Assembly: GCF_011397635.1 (NCBI RefSeq)
Contig: NC_064759.1
Coordinates: forward strand, 12,358,428-12,422,427
DNA length: 64,000 nt
Source: Epinephelus fuscoguttatus
Taxonomy: Eukaryota > Chordata > Actinopteri > Perciformes > Serranidae
Direction of reading: 5' to 3'
The notes below the pieces were generated by a model, which searched no databases, was not told where the DNA came from, and saw only the letters and a list, made by a program, of their open reading frames with translations. Within the stretch, counting starts at the first letter, position 1. Every line of letters begins with the position of its first letter. A program made the position numbers and the translations under genes. Shown in pieces: positions 4,501 through 38,714 of this stretch.

Positions 4501-7500
4501 CATAGACAAGCTTCCCAGCCTTGTCGCCAATACCCTCTTGGATCTTGTAGATATCACTGCACACACAAATAAAAACACCAATGATCTTCAGAGTACTGCA
4601 ACATGTATCTATCTATCTGTTAGGGGTATTTTTCAGTTACAATGACCCAAATGGGGAATCAGTTATTTGAGAAAATAGTAAATGGACTGCACTTGTACAG
4701 CACCTTTCTCTTCCGACTACTCAAGGTGCTTTTACACTATGAGTCACATTCACTCATTCAACCACTGGTGGCCAAAGCTGCCATACAAGGTGCTACGTGC
4801 TACTCAGTAACCATTCACACGCTCTCACACACTGATAGAACTGCTATCAGGAGCAATTTGGGGCTTGCCCAAGGACACTTCGACATGCGGACTGGAGGAG
4901 CCTGGGATCGGACTGCCAATCTCGATTCCTCTGAGCCACAGCCACCCAAAAAATGATCAGCAAATTTTGAATCAATAATTGGTCGCAGCTCTACTTTACA
5001 CCTGCACATAAAATAGAGTGTGTGGCTTGTCTGTTACCCACTCTGTGAGACGTGTGTTGAGCTCTCCCGTTTCAGTGACATCAAACCAGCCGATGTCCTG
5101 CTGCATGATGCGGTGGAAGAACAACTTGCGGATGTGTGAGGCCTGCCGCCCGGCCGACAGGCTCCAGAAGGCCACCTGCCCGTAGGCTGCAATCAGTACC
5201 ACAAAACCCAGGATGGAGTAGTAGATGGCAAACCTGGAAGGAGAAGGAGAGAAGTGTTGTGACACAAAGGACTTCAAAAGTTCTCGAATGTGTCTAATAA
5301 GGATGCAAGTAACAAGAAATTGCAATTTATGCTATTTTATATCTAATCCCTGCAAGCTCCCTGATCTTCCTGCATTTATGAAACTCTCAACAAACTAAAA
5401 AAAAACAAACAATCATCAACGTTACATTCAGTATTTTGGAGATATTTTCACTCGATAACGACAGCTTGCTCTGTTGATGCGGATCATGTAAAGTCTTACC
5501 TCGTCATATCCTCCTGTAAGGTGCTGTTTCTTGGTGGGATGGTGATATCTGATGACACACGGTAAAAAAAGACAGTGATATAGGTGTTACTGCATATTAA
5601 TTATTTATTTCAGTTACTTATGTGTGCCGATGTCTGTAACTGAAAACTCACTGAGGTGGCTGGTGTTCATGTGGCTCATCGCGTCCTGTACAAAGCTGTC
5701 CGTCATGTCCCCAAACACGACACACATGAGAGGAAGCACCACACCGTGCACCATGGCCAGCAGTGTCCCAGCCAAGATCAACGCAATGTCCACTCCGCTT
5801 GCAAACCTGAACTACACTCAGGTAAAAGAGACAGTGCGGACAGACCAAAGACAGAACAGCAGATATCAGTATCTGTATGTTGTGGATGCACCTGATTATT
5901 TGCTGGAGGTTAAGAATTTTGAATTACACAATCAGAGCGAGGGAAAGACTTTTAACTCTAAGCAGCTATTATATTCTCACAGCGGGGGACAGGTGGGGTC
6001 AAACAACAGCAGGATGTTCCACACTCCCATCCTCTCTCCCAGCCTCCTCCTCTTACTTCATACACTCACACAAACCTTGACACACACGCAACTTGCTGTT
6101 ATGACTGTAAGATTAAACCACCAAAGGCTGTAGCCACTGAGCATGCACAGCTTTACAGAATACTATGTTAAATAATTTAAAGCTGCTCCCGTCTTCATAT
6201 GTGACACACGCAGCGCAACATCCATGACTGACACTTTACACCTAATACACTTGCGAGCACTGTTGTTGGTCACTGGGTGAGTGTGTGGGTCTTGTATGGT
6301 TCTTTAAAAGTTCTCTATTGGTTCTTTTCCCAGTAAACTAAACTAAGCTGAAGAACCAGTAGAGAGCATTAAGCCCCTGTATGGTTCTTTAGAGGTTCTC
6401 TATTGGTTCTTACTAAACTAAACTACGGAACTAATAGAGAACTTTTTTTTAAGTCTGAATATGGTTCTTTATAGGTTCTCTGTTGGTTATTTCCCCCAGC
6501 AAACTAAACTAAACTGAGCTATTTATTCTGCTGGACCTGGGTAACGAATTTCATTCCCTCATGTTTTTAACATGTTTGAGTAAACATAAAATAAAATAAA
6601 CTGAACCTTGAACTTTAAACCTTGAGGAACCTTTTATTTAGGCCCTGTATGGTTCTTTAGAGGATCTCTATTGGTTCTTTTCCGCAATACACAAAACTAA
6701 CAAAACTAAAATAAAATAAAGAACCAATAAAGAATCTTTTTAAAGGCCCTGTATGTTTCTTTAGAGGTTCTCTATTACTTCTTTCCCCAGTAAACTATAC
6801 AAAACTAAGCTGAAGAACCAGCAGAGAATATTTTAAGCCCCAATATGGCTCTTTAGAGGATCTACTGGTTCTTTCCCCAGTAAACTAAGCTAAATTAATC
6901 TAAGCTACACAAAACTAAGCTAAACTAAGCTAAACTACACTAAACTAAGGAACCAATAGAGAACCTAATTAAGCCACTGTATGGTTCGTTAGAGGTTCTC
7001 CGTTGGTTATTTCCCCAATAAACTACATTTAGCTTGAGTACCAGTAAAGAACATTTTAAAACCCCTAAGGTTCTTCAGAGGATCGCTACTGTTTTTTCCC
7101 TCAGTAAACTAAACTAAATGTCACTAAACTAAAGTAAGATAAACTAAGGAACCAATAGAGAACCTTTTATTAAGACCCTGCATGGTTCTTTAGAGGTTCT
7201 CTACTGGTTCTTTCCCCACTAAATTAAATTAATCTGAAGAACCAGTAGAGAACATTTTAAGCCCCTGTAAGGTTCTTTAGATGTTCTCTACTAGTTCTTT
7301 CCCTCGTAAGCTAAACTAAACTAAACTAAACTAAACTAAAGAACCAATAGAGAACCTTTATTAAGCCCCTGTAAGGTTCTTTAGATGTTCTCTACTAGTT
7401 CTTTCCCTCGTAAACTAAACTAAACTAAACTAAAGAACCAATAGAGAACCTTTATTAAGACCCTGTAAGGTTCTTTAGATGTTCTCTACTAGTTCTTTCC

Positions 7501-9358
7501 CTCGTAAACTAAACTAAACTAAACTAAACTAAACTAAACTAAACTAAACTAAGGAACCAATAGAGAACCTTTATTAAGACCCTGTATGGTTCTTAAGATG
7601 TTCTTTATTGGTTCTTTCCCCACTAAATTAAACTAAACTAAACTAAACTAAACTAAGGAACCAATAGAGAACCTTTATTAAGACCCTGCATGGTTCTTTA
7701 GAGGTTCTCTACTGGTTCTTTCCCCACTAAATTAAATTAATCTGAAGAACCAGTAGAGAACATTTTAAGCCCCTGTAAGGTTCTTTAGATGTTCTCTACT
7801 AGTTCTTTCCCTCATAAACTAAACTAAACTAAACTAAGGAACCAATAGAGAACCTTTATTAAGACCCTGTATGGTTCTTAAGATGCTCTTTATTGGTTCT
7901 TTCCCCACTAAATTAAACTAAACTAAACTAAGCTAAACTAAACTAAACTAAGGAACCAATAGAGAACCTTTATTAAGACCCTACATGGTTCTTTAGAGGT
8001 TCTCTACTAGTTCTTTCCCCACTAAATTAAATTAATCTGAAGAACCAGTAGAGAACATTTTAAGCCCCTGTAAGGTTCTTTAGATGTTCTCTACTGGTTC
8101 TTTCCCTCATAAACTAAACTAAACTAAACTAAACTAAGGAACCAATAGAGAACCTTTATTAAGACCCTGTATGGTTCTTAAGATGCTCTTTATTGGTTCT
8201 TTCCCCACTAAATTAAACTAAACTAAACTAAGCTAAACTAAACTAAACTAAGGAACCAATAGAGAACCTTTATTAAGACCCTGCATGGTTCTTTAGAGGT
8301 TCTCTACTAGTTCTTTCCCCACTAAATTAAATTAATCTGAAGAACCAGTAGAGAACATTTTAAGCCCCTGTAAGGTTCTTTAGATGTTCTCTACTAGTTC
8401 TTTCCCTCGTAAACTAAACTAAACTAAACTAAGAAACCTTTTGTTAAGGCCTCGCATGTTTCTTTAGAGGCTCTCTACTGGTTCCTCCCCCAGTAAACTA
8501 AGCTGAAGAACCAGCAGAGAAAGAATATTTTAAGCCTCTAAATTGTTCTTTAGAGGTTCCTCGCTGGCTCCTCAGCTTAGTTTAGGTGAGTTTACTGGAG
8601 AAAAAATAGAAACACGACTTTCAAAGAGCCTACAAACAGTGCACTTCCACAGGATGACACATTAAAGGAGTGGCTCTCAACCAGGTTTATATTGAATTCC
8701 TCAGTAAGCATTTAGTGCAGGATTCTTAACCTTTACACCAATAGGTTATCTCACAAGAAATGATTAATAATCGTTCATATTATAAGTAAAAGTGTCATTT
8801 AAAAAACATATTGACGACTCCATGATATCATAACATTTTGAAACAGCTATAATACTAAACATCAGCATGAATTGACGAAGGTGTTGTAGCCTATAGCACC
8901 TTTAAAGAATGGGTACCAAATAACACCACAACAGGTTCCTTGTTACAACCAGCCAAAGAACCACTTTCGGGTACCATTTTTGTTTTAAGTGAAAACAGTT
9001 GAAAGAATGAGAAAAAATTAAACTACATAAACTGCTTCAAACCCCTAATTCAAGAGAGAGATGAGAGCGTGATGGTGACTGAGCTTACCACATCAATGGG
9101 GCCAACCATGGGCTCCTTTGCCTCTTTTTCTTTCTCCTTTCCATCCGTCTTGCTATCACTGGAGGATATAAAAATGATGCATGAATATAAAGTCTAATTG
9201 CTTTTTTTTTCACCTGTCAGTGTTTAGGCTGTGTGATATTTTTTTTAAATCTACTGAACTTGGTTAAAATAAGAGAATTTAAAGAGAGTTTACCTTATAC
9301 CTCCGTTTTGTTCCTGTTTGCCGGCGTCCAGCATTTCCATCTCGTCCTTCGCCTCCAT
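1584..9358 (-). CDS. abcb1: ABC transporter B family, P-glycoprotein type, N-terminal 373 residues (gene continues beyond base 1)
   Basis: ATP-driven efflux pump of lipids and xenobiotics in the plasma membrane. Nine coding exons on the minus strand: 9294-9358, 9089-9158, 5652-5811, 5500-5548, 5042-5233, 4385-4556, 3034-3158, 1805-1976, 1584-1697. All junctions are GT/AG and the phases add up to exactly 373 codons. Order: charged cytoplasmic N-terminus rich in K and E (residues 1-45); TM1 about 50-75 ([18 protein letters not shown]); extracellular loop with three N-glycosylation sequons (NTS, NIT, NST); TM2 with YYSILGFVV; the intracellular helix [16 protein letters not shown] and [10 protein letters not shown]3-TM4 ([16 protein letters not shown]); [15 protein letters not shown]5 (YALAFWYG); TM6 ending near [12 protein letters not shown]. 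Exon lengths of 192, 172, 125, 172 and 114 are, as I recall, those of mammalian ABCB1. Both ATP-binding domains and the second membrane domain are outside the window. Synteny with rundc3b favours the ABCB1/ABCB4 locus; fish naming (abcb1 or abcb4) is unsettled. The start is the first ATG after an acceptor near 9370; a non-coding first exon probably lies upstream. Confidence 0.92.
1977..3033 (-). other. abcb intron 8, no recognised element
   Basis: AT-rich intron between the exons encoding the YNKNLED segment and the [13 protein letters not shown] segment. It contains a short (TTA)n run near 2873-2889. I see no inverted-repeat element or coding remnant here. Confidence 0.6.
3159..4384 (-). other. 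abcb intron 7 with a foldback-element fragment
   Basis: Mostly featureless intron. Bases about 3335-3395 (TTATCCAGTCGTATGATCA and the following CTTCCCAAACAC) resemble the middle of the foldback element at 61.5-62.1 kb, so a fragment of that family is probably present. Confidence 0.45.
4675..4956 (+). repeat. Interspersed repeat of a common teleost type in abcb intron 6
   Basis: It starts AAATGGACTGCACTTGTACA and runs through CACTCAAGGTGCTTTTACAC-like sequence, GCCCAAGGACACTTCGACAT and a CTGAGCCACAGCCACCC end. I know this pattern from many fish genomes as a dispersed repeat. An open frame of 104 codons runs across it but is not a gene. It lies wholly inside the intron between the exons at 4385-4556 and 5042-5233. 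Confidence 0.6.
6290..8595. repeat. 2.3-kb tandem satellite of self-complementary units in abcb intron 2
   Basis: The array alternates two blocks: TATGGTTCTTTAGAGG plus TTCTCTACTGGTTCTTTCCC, and AGGAACCAATAGAGAACCTT plus TATTAAGACCCTG. GGTTCTCTATTGGTTC and GAACCAATAGAGAACC are exact reverse complements, so each unit can fold into a hairpin whose loop is a variable (TAAAC)n run. Toward the 3' end a higher-order unit of about 300 bp appears (compare 7951, 8251 and about 7656). The 5' end of the array is more diverged than the middle. No open frame spans it. It occupies most of the 3.3-kb intron between the exons at 5652-5811 and 9089-9158. Confidence 0.93.
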
Positions 9359-10784: not shown

Positions 10785-11940
10785 CACTCACCGGCCACTT
10801 CATTAGGTACACCTGTTCAACTGCTTGTTAACGCAAATAGCTAATTGGCCAATCACTTGGCAGCAACTCAGTGCATTTAGGCATGTAGACACGGACGACC
10901 TGCTGAAGATCAAACTGAGCATCAGAATGGGGAAGAAAGGTGATTTAAGTGACTTTGAACGTGGCATGGACACACAGCCATCTCTAGGGTTTACAGAGGA
11001 TGGTCCGATAAAGAGACAATATCCAGTGAGCAGCAGTTCTCTGGGTGAAAATGCCTTGTTGATGCCAGAGGTCAAAGGAGAATGGCCAGACTGGTTCAAG
11101 ATGATAGAAAGGCAACAGGAACTCAAATAACCACTGGTTACAGCCAAGGTCTGTAGAAGAGCATCTCTGAACCAACAACACCTCGTCCAACCTTGAAGCA
11201 GATGGGCTACAGCAGCAGAAGACCACACCAGGTGCCACTCCTGTCAGCTAACAACAGGAAACTGAGGCTACAGTTCACACAGGCTCACCAAAACTGGACA
11301 ATAGAAGATTGGAAAAACGTTGCCTGGTCTGATGAGTCTGGATTTCTGCTGCCACATTCAGATGATAGGGTCAGAATTTGGTGTAAACATGAAAGCATGG
11401 ATCCATCCTGCCTTGTATCAACAGTTCAGGCTGGTAGTGGTGGTGTAATGGTGTGGGGGAGATTGTCTTGGCACACTTTGGGCCCCTTAGTACCAACTGA
11501 GCATGGTTTAAACACCACATCCTACCTGAGTATTGTTGCTGACCATGTCCATCCCTTTATGACCACAGTGTACCCATCTTCTGATGGCTACTTCCAGCAG
11601 GATAACGCACCATGTCACAAAGCTCAAATCATCTCAAACTGGTTTCTTGAACATGACAATGAGTTCACTGTACTCCAATGGCCTCCACAGTCACCAGATC
11701 TCAGTCCAATAGAGCACCTTTGGGATGTGGTGGAACGGGAGATTCACATCATGGATGTGCAGCCGACAAATTTGCAGCAACTGTGTGATGCTATCATGTC
11801 AATATGGACCAAAATCTCTGAGGTACAAGACTACTCCCTGCACCATGCTGTGGGGTGGGCAACCACCTCGTGATTGTCATAGTGTATATCATACACTTCA
11901 TATACTTCATATATTAATATTAGCATGGGTCCTCCTGTAA
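10785..11940 (+). mobile_element. Tc1-like DNA transposon, 3' end degraded or missing
   Basis: The left end begins right after a TATA at CACTCACCGGCCACTTCATT followed by AGGTACACCTGTTCAA, a terminal sequence known from fish Tc1-like elements. A mutated N-terminal transposase region (MGKKGDLSDFERG) follows, then an intact stretch of the catalytic half. I do not find the matching right terminal inverted repeat after the transposase frame, so the copy is truncated or rearranged on that side and cannot be autonomous. The right boundary given is approximate. Confidence 0.85.
10927..11873 (+). pseudogene. Tc1-like transposase, broken (226-codon open C-terminal part at 11193-11873)
   Basis: A DDE-type transposase remnant that would act by cut-and-paste at TA sites. 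The N-terminal piece starts MGKKGDLSDFERG at 10927, then loses frame and apparently part of the DNA-binding region. From 11193 an uninterrupted frame gives MGYSSRRPHQVPLLSANNRK, then WTIEDWKNVAWSDESGF (first catalytic D), GYFQQDNAPCHKA (second D) and WPPQSPDLSPIEHLWDVVER (E). The end (KISEVQDYSLHHAVGWATTS) diverges from the usual family C-terminus, which fits rearrangement near 11821. Stops and frame changes before 11193 make this a pseudogene; the start at 11193 is only the first ATG of the open part. Confidence 0.88.
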
Positions 11941-16110: not shown

Positions 16111-16540
16111 TAGCAGAGATTAGTCTTTTCAGATGGACGTCCCTGAAGCAAAAACCTTATTAAATAGGGTACCGTGACCTAATGTGTTTCAGTTTAAGGG
16201 TCCTTGACACAAAAAAGGTTGGGAACCACTATTTTACACTGCAGCGTTAAGAGTTTTTACAATGTCTTTGTGTTGCTTTCAGATCTAATAATCGGGTAGA
16301 TCACTGTATGCCCTGTTTCCTTTTTCTTTTTTGTGTTGTTTTGTTTTGTTTTTTTATTTGTTTTGTGCTTTGTTGTATTTTAGGTAGCCTCGTGTAACAT
16401 CTTGGCTGAGGGACTACTGATGCAAAATAGCTTTTTGGCAAATTTTGGCATTTTATACCATGTGTATTTATTAATTTGCACTATCCCTTCTTTATTAAAC
16501 TTAACTCGACTCAACTCAGTGAAAATAAAATAAACTAGAA

Positions 16541-17024
16541 TAAAATAAAATAAATAAAATGAAACGAAATGAAATGAAATTAAATAAAATAAAATAAACT
16601 AGAATATAACACATTAAAATTAGAATCAACTAGAATGAAATAAAATAAAATAAACTACAATTAAAAAAACGGTGCAGTGGTTAGCATTGTCACCTCATAG
16701 CAAGAGTGTTCTGGGTTCGAACCCGGGGGTATAGGTACCCTTCTGTGCAGAATTTGCATGTTCTCCCTGTGTCAGCGTGGGTTTTCTCCAGGTGCTCCAG
16801 CCTCCTCCCACAGTCCAAAGACATGCAGGTTAACTGGTGACTCTAAATTGTCCGTAGGTGTGAATGTGAGTGTGAATGGTTGTTTGTCTCTATGTGTCAG
16901 CCCTGCGATAGTCTGGCGACCTGTCCAGGGTGTACCCTGCCTCTCGCCCGATGTAGCTGGGATAGGCTCCAGCCCCCCCGCGACCCTCAAGAGGATGAAG
17001 CGGTTAGAAGATGAATGAATGAAT
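16541..17024 (+). repeat. First unit of a 484-bp tandem duplication, containing a full-length SINE (16670-17024)
   Basis: An AT-rich lead (AAATAAAATGAAACGAAATG, then AACACATTAAAATTAGAATC) is followed by the SINE: GGTGCAGTGGTTAGCATTGT, TGGGTTCGAACCCGGG (matches the pol III box B consensus GGTTCGANNCC), TTTGCATGTTCTCCCTGTGT, CAGCCTCCTCCCACAGTCC, GTGTCAGCCCTGCGATAGTC and the GATGAATGAATGAATG tail. The same series starts again 484 bp later. Confidence 0.88.
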
Positions 17025-17470
17025 GAAAATAAAATAAATAAAATGAAACGAAATGAAATGAAATTAAATAAAATAAAATAAACTAGAATATAACACATTA
17101 AAATTAGAATCAACTAGAATGAAATAAAATAAAATAAACTACAATTAAAAAAACGGTGCAGTGGTTAGCATTGTCACCTCATAGCAAGAGTGTTCTGGGT
17201 TCGAACCCGGGGGTATAGGTACCCTTCTGTGCAGAATTTGCATGTTCTCCCTGTGTCAGCGTGGGTTTTCTCCAGGTGCTCCAGCCTCCTCCCACAGTCC
17301 AAAGACATGCAGGTTAACTGGTGACTCTAAATTGTCCATAGGTGTGAATTTGAGTGTGAATGGTTGTCTGTCTCTATGTGTCAGCCCTGTGATAGTCTGG
17401 CGACCTGTCCAGGGTGTACCCCTGCCTCTCGCCCAATGACAACTGGGATAGGCTCCAGCCCCCCGCAACC
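17025..17470 (+). repeat. Second unit of the 484-bp tandem duplication, SINE at 17154-17470
   Basis: Nearly identical to 16541-17024 through the AT-rich lead and the 5' two thirds of the SINE; differences gather in the last 150 bp (GTCCATAGG for GTCCGTAGG, GACAACTGG for GTAGCTGG). The GAATGAATG tail is lost at the end, where the sequence changes to CAACAGGACATGGAGG. Both lead and SINE are doubled, so this is a segmental duplication and not two insertions. Confidence 0.85.
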
Positions 17471-18224
17471 CCCAACAGGACATGGAGGTACAGAAAATTT
17501 GAAAAAATTTGAGACATTTTGCCTCCATAACAGACTTTCTATTAGACTAGAGGAAAGAAAACATCCAAAATACACACTGAGGTGTTTCTTTTAGTTCAGA
17601 TTTCTGTTTTGGAAATGTATGCAAAGAGCGCATGGCTCATTTTAACCCTAACCCTAACCCTGTAACATTTTAGACAACTTGTGGAACTGCAAGGGTAAAA
17701 ACAAAGCAGCGCGTCTCTCAAATACAACTCACCTCCACCCTCTAGTGTTTAATGCTGTAATATTGAAGGGAACCAGGATAGAATGTGCTGTTTTCTTTGG
17801 GGCCACTGGATGGCTCTCTCCTCCTTCAAAGCTGACATAACTGAATTTAAAGGCAGTTAAAAGACACAGTGATCCGACAAAATATTTAAAATCCAAGCAC
17901 AGGACTGGAACATGGCAACTCTCTCACATTGCATTTACTGTCAGTTATTTTAAGACACGCATGAACATTAGAAAACATAAATGTGACTCAATGTTTTCTG
18001 ATGCTATTAAATGTTTTGTTTTATTAATACAGGAGTAAAACTTATTTATATATTTCACGTATGATTCACTGGAAAATTGATAAATATGTAGTTCAAAGAG
18101 GAAAATGTAAGATTCAGAATGTTTTCATTCATTTGTTGGATGAATCAGCTTCTTAACACTTGCAAATTAAAACAGACATGTCATTTACCCATTATATAAA
18201 TTTCTGTTTGTGGGTGACAGGCAG

Positions 18225-18225
<1 letters not shown>

Positions 18226-18264
<39 letters not shown>
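18226..18264. repeat. (CA)n microsatellite
   Basis: An uninterrupted CA/AC run of about 19 units. Confidence 0.97.

Positions 18265-18779: not shown

Positions 18780-18782
<3 letters not shown>

Positions 18783-18831
<49 letters not shown>
18783..18831. repeat. (GATA)n microsatellite
   Basis: About 12 uninterrupted GATA units, preceded by a degenerate AT-rich (TTA/ATA) stretch from about 18720. Confidence 0.97.

Positions 18832-20095: not shown

Positions 20096-38714
<18,619 letters not shown>

Follow-up and report, generated by a model that had tools for sequence, protein, structure and literature searches.

Satellite-like arrays derived from the internal repeats of non-autonomous mobile elements are already known. 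One case is Tetris/TIR-220 of Drosophila virilis, where internal repeats of a non-autonomous element are described as having seeded satellite-like arrays (PMC4079207). Two others are from Xenopus, namely miDNA4, a Tc1/mariner miniature inverted-repeat transposable element (MITE), and Xstir, for which a review describes a tandem repeat found either singly or in arrays (PMC12628747). Here we describe a further good example, a tandem array in the grouper Epinephelus fuscoguttatus, located in a stretch of 64,000 nucleotides (contig NC_064759.1, positions 12,358,428 to 12,422,427 of the forward strand) that we refer to as the window. The array is very probably the amplified internal repeat of an old, left-truncated, dispersed and non-autonomous MITE-like element within an intron of an ABCB-type gene. 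This reading follows from the presence of dispersed copies, from a contiguous right part that the array shares with them, and from an inverted last unit that is typical of the family.

The array occupies positions 6290 to ~8630 of the window, and its tandem part (6290–8566, plus strand) has 23 unit heads in units of 80–188 bp, mostly 84–119 bp. The L arm is GTTCTCTAYTGGTTC-like and the R arm is GAACCARTAGAGAAC-like, and a scan of both strands of the window for GAACCARTAGAGAAC with up to two mismatches gives 40 matches, all at 6310–8522; 100 shuffles give a mean of 0.32 and no more than 2, and the array is therefore where the preliminary description placed it, well above chance. The L and R arms alternate along the 23 heads, although not with complete regularity, as the R arm is present in 20 of them and absent from head 3 (6475), head 21 (8386) and head 23 (8556). 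An additional, weaker L-like match lies 11 nucleotides upstream of most L arms. The arms had been described as exact complements in each unit, which is not the case: Watson-Crick pairing is perfect across the 15-bp core in only two of the 20 two-arm units (range 9–15), and five are fully paired if G-U is allowed. These counts use arm positions entered from the scans and leave out the three heads lacking an R arm; they include units 6 and 8 in spite of their damaged L arms. Loop length among the two-arm units is 18–78 nucleotides. Perfect TAAAC runs of at least four copies occur seven times in the window, all within the array and with 4–9 copies each, the longest (nine copies; 7505–7549, plus strand) being in the loop of one unit. 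A variable (TAAAC)n loop thus describes part of the array, whereas units 9, 14, 17 and 20 share a 28-nucleotide loop, TTTCCCCACTAAATTAAATTAATCTGAA, in its place. At the right edge a last, diverged L arm is followed by an inverted loop (8556–8630, plus strand; score 47 compared with a shuffle maximum of 28), forming an inverted terminal half-unit. Homology to the element extends to ~8991, beyond the 8595 given earlier as the end of the array.

The repeat is dispersed in the genome, which we searched as 1.05 Gb on 26 contigs. Allowing at most one mismatch, the arm GAACCAATAGAGAACC occurs 83 times (15 times in the window), compared with 14 times for a reversed control, and 164 matches are found with a 331-bp query taken from L057, one of the dispersed copies. 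The matches listed, when grouped by eye, represent at least 39 places on 17 contigs. The window and the place of the query itself are among them, which leaves at least 38 places with the array's repeat apart from the window; because 40 of the 100 first-look candidates were scored, these numbers are lower bounds. What had been taken for a satellite of perfect inverted repeats is therefore better described as a dispersed MITE-like repeat whose core has been amplified, with most units imperfect. Twenty loci (L053–L072) were fetched and their unit heads called by a 36-nucleotide head motif; calling by likeness to the arm motif is biased toward paired arms. At least one head is present at 19 of them, the exception being L063, a doubtful family member. 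Thirteen loci have one or two heads, and larger numbers are found at L056 (three), L065 (four), L058 and L060 (six each), L059 (seven) and L053 (ten), with 22 in the window, where the counts and comparisons made with this motif omit one of the 23 heads (6857); the heads are partly non-contiguous at L058, L059, L065 and L072. Three or more same-strand matches lie together on contigs C10 (38428503), C11 (20074530), C16 (23548785) and C9 (17439891, at 17.44 Mb) and twice on C20 (21749733 and 22574333), giving, with L053 on C19 (24353627), at least seven array loci besides the window among the matches listed. One and the same unit is thus present at low copy number within elements and also as long arrays, as in a satellite derived from a transposon. 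In IMG/VR there were no matches to a 21-mer, and a 17-mer had single matches in each of 43 contigs, which we take as chance without a formal expectation; a search of GTDB genomes gave a single match on one contig (L001). An exact-sequence literature search with the arm and family motifs found no match.

The dispersed copies share ends, as MITEs do. Eleven copies have a common left end around ACAGAAAAATGTTGGTTCC, and a right-end motif closing with CCAAAGAACCACTTTTGGGTACTGTTTAGCACCATTTTTGTTTAGAGTG is found at 11 of the 20 fetched loci (scores 52–106, read without a shuffle control, with some fetched stretches ending before the element's right end) and in the window (score 63). The array is linked to the right end, in that the window segment 8567–8991 (plus strand) aligns as the non-repeated right part of the element to all seven of the dispersed right parts tried. 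Six of these score 213–290 compared with shuffle maxima of 69–83, and L071 scores 101 compared with 61; the best alignment is identical at 328 of 395 positions (score 290, shuffle maximum 69). The window and 17 of the 20 fetched loci likewise have the inverted half-unit (scores 39–85, shuffle maxima 20–28), the exceptions being L053 and L070, which have the L arm only, and L063, which has nothing above shuffles.

Other architectures were considered for the element and rejected. A foldback transposon, with long terminal inverted repeats composed of subrepeats, does not fit, as the repeats here belong to the core inside the element and no long inverted repeats are seen at the ends tried. The array is not bounded by terminal inverted repeats of its own, the inverted last unit being part of the family architecture, and inverted matches flanking the array beyond that unit are within or nearly within shuffles (98 of 500 as high). 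Nor was the TTAA between units taken to point to a piggyBac- or Kolobok-like element, because the unit ends, by eye, are not inverted repeats. The outer parts of the element (L053–L072 and window 8880–8991) have, by eye, further short palindromes such as GGTGCTATATAGCACC, in a style reminiscent of other teleost repeats.

Much of the array has been homogenized recently. The periods reported by Tandem Repeats Finder include 87–119 and 300 bp, and the 300-bp higher-order period noted in the preliminary description is borne out. It spans 7525–8432, with the copies at 7815–8114 and 8115–8414 identical at 297 of 300 positions and the preceding stretch, 7530–7814, differing by 15 bp in length and matching at 281 of the 285 positions that align. 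The homogenized part as a whole (7168–8441, plus strand) consists of 84–119-bp units in three classes, as judged by eye. Comparison of the heads, over 36 nucleotides only, is consistent with this: window heads 8–20 (in the list of 22) have their nearest relative within the array at 97–100% identity, and 19 of the 22 have their closest relative there, heads 1, 7 and 22 being closest to another locus. With the window included, head identity within loci is 0.783 compared with 0.723 when permuted, and none of 300 permutations is as high.

Several observations weigh against interpreting the array as the core of a transposed element. The left end of the family, expected at 6190–6290 (plus strand), was not found; seven of seven left ends score 14–18 against 5901–6292, within shuffles (mean 15–16, maxima 24–30), and they score 44–92 against one another, so that the window copy seems to be left-truncated. 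The terminal inverted repeats are weak, with six of 49 left-right pairings beating all 100 shuffles, and four of those six involve the window's right end; a short GAAAAATG-type core is shared. There is no convincing target-site duplication in the four copies tried, where the shared words are of 4, 4, 4 and 6 bases. The MITE label is therefore given by likeness, the element being dispersed, short and foldback-rich, and it is taken to be a transposon from its dispersal and common ends. Lastly, when the window is excluded, head identity within loci is 0.703 compared with 0.696, and 87 of 300 permutations are as high. Likeness within loci is thus seen only when the window is included, which fits a recent local amplification at the window locus and an amplification at the other loci that was either old or earlier than dispersal, so that some of the other arrays may predate dispersal.

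A related alternative is that the units were amplified within mobile copies before dispersal, a course proposed for Tetris and Galileo, in which the repeats may aid transposition, and that only the last rounds were intronic. It is favored by the divergence of units outside the window, which is as large within loci as between them, and by the three window heads with a nearest relative at another locus; the 13 loci with only one or two heads argue against it, as do the short length (36 nucleotides) of the heads compared and the 19 window heads with a nearest relative within the array. We regard this as possible, if somewhat doubtful.

It is highly improbable that the array is an independent minisatellite or satellite that arose locally in the intron with no tie to a mobile element. 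Tandem structure, a higher-order period and microsatellite loops are all ordinary behavior for a minisatellite, and the failure to recognize a target-site duplication in four dispersed copies is in keeping with such an origin, but the units and the ~425-bp non-repeated right part recur at other places in the genome with common ends; the dispersed copies and the right-part alignments largely rule it out. Nor does the array resemble a classical satellite, with its long, homogeneous head-to-tail arrays in heterochromatin, since it is 2.3 kb long, is made of heterogeneous units and is in the intron of a gene.

The arms raise the question of a functional structured element, with hairpins selected at the RNA level, as double-stranded RNA that serves editing or yields small RNA, or at the DNA level, where they would form a barrier or regulator within the abcb intron. 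The array can, on predicted folding, form extensive fold-back structures as proposed earlier: three array blocks, each compared with 30 dinucleotide shuffles on both strands, have z-scores of -4.9 to -13.1, while two intron flanks are at -0.3 to 1.4. In the 20 two-arm units the R arm can also pair with the L arm of the next unit, and slightly more strongly on average (-25.8 kcal/mol compared with -23.2 kcal/mol within the unit), the between-unit hairpin being lower in energy for 12 of the 20. Compensatory changes in the paired arms, which a structured RNA would have, are not seen within units, with 254 of 300 pairs compared with 255.8 (standard deviation 2.7) when R arms are shuffled among units. 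The same is true of 25 units at other loci (298 of 400 pairs compared with 302.0 permuted), which were picked by arm-motif similarity and are biased toward paired arms. The fit of R arms to the L arm of the following unit is slightly above that of shuffled arms (255 of 300 pairs compared with 250.2; 697 of 10,000 shuffles as high). Rfam at gathering thresholds has zero matches in the window, and scanning for tRNAs under the bacterial code gives none there. Hairpin potential by itself is no evidence for selection, and although the strong fold-back on both strands, the alternation of arms and the slight fit between neighboring units would agree with a functional element, the lack of covariation within units here and elsewhere, the empty Rfam result and the occurrence of the units at many other places leave selected hairpins unsupported and this reading highly improbable.

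The array appears to lie within an ABCB-type gene that runs along the minus strand, in one of its introns, and the earlier placement in such an intron is upheld by exon alignments and by splice sites deduced from the sequence. Part of human ABCB1 aligns to the minus strand at 5811–5647, 5238–5032, 4555–4382, 3170–3033, 1978–1802 and 1703–1587; the stretch at 5647–5811 has 41% identity to it, and the two of these exon stretches that were compared with Pfam both match ABC_membrane. An upstream exon fragment (9089–9151, minus strand) is followed by a donor GTAAGC, exon end and donor together being at 9151–9083, and the next exon may begin with TTC AGG TTT after TGTAG. Joining the two exons gives an in-frame VGPIDV/FRFASG junction, with an alternative AG five bases downstream, and from this we infer a putative intron at 5812–9088 (minus strand), 82.5% of which is made up of 6290–8991.

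A plausible course of events for an amplified MITE-like core is as follows. The basic element has a palindromic core of an L arm, a CCCCAGTAAACTAAACTAAGCTG-like loop, an R arm, a short spacer, a second L arm and an inverted loop, as seen in dispersed copies. At the window locus the L-loop-R unit would have been duplicated repeatedly, presumably by unequal exchange or replication slippage, a process that the foldback arms may help. Both edges of the array would keep older, diverged units, and the middle and right would have been homogenized recently, finally by duplications of three units (300 bp), with the TAAAC stretch of the loop growing and shrinking through slippage. As part of the pre-mRNA the array would be transcribed, extensively folded back and removed by splicing. 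Nothing points to a function for the host gene, which the array probably does not affect, and an odd array is explained without invoking function. A more speculative proposal, which we think has a modest chance of being correct, is that the foldback arms themselves drive repeated amplification, with stalled forks switching template between arms and the palindromic core giving rise to arrays at eight or more loci. If so, the family is a natural series from one to more than 20 units for studying the hairpin-driven birth of satellites. In any case, a single genome shows a series from palindromic cores of one or two units to arrays of 6, 7, 10 and 22 heads, a series that lends itself to the question of how satellite-like DNA within gene introns is seeded by mobile elements.

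Several other features of the window lie to the right of the array. A Tc1/mariner-type transposase frame of 238 amino acids is at 11157–11873 (plus strand), with Pfam matches to DDE_3 (3.2e-11) and HTH_Tnp_Tc3_2 (6.7e-08). A 484-bp tandem duplication with 96% matches and AAAAT-rich arrays is at 16538–17480, a minisatellite with a 57-bp unit in about four copies is at 26778–27013, and there are perfect microsatellites of (CA)n at 18226–18264 and (AGAT)n at 18782–18831.

Tetris resembles the window element in being apparently non-autonomous, a complete partner element being reported as not found, and in having internal tandem repeats that vary in number and expand into satellite-like arrays (PMC4079207). 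It differs in that its repeats are ~220 bp, ~94% alike and within long terminal inverted repeats, with amplification favored in beta-heterochromatin (PMC4079207). The window element, in contrast, has units of mostly 84–119 bp with internal inverted arms, which form the core of the element; it is intronic and more diverged, and its terminal repeats are weak. The Angel elements of zebrafish, short inverted-repeat elements of a teleost with single-strand pairing, are similar as described in the review, where the passages concerned mention no tandem core arrays for them (PMC12628747). The same source gives miDNA4 and Xstir as composites of a MITE and an array, a likeness at the level of description (PMC12628747). 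By analogy, the closest parallels of the array would appear to be Tetris/TIR-220 and miDNA4.

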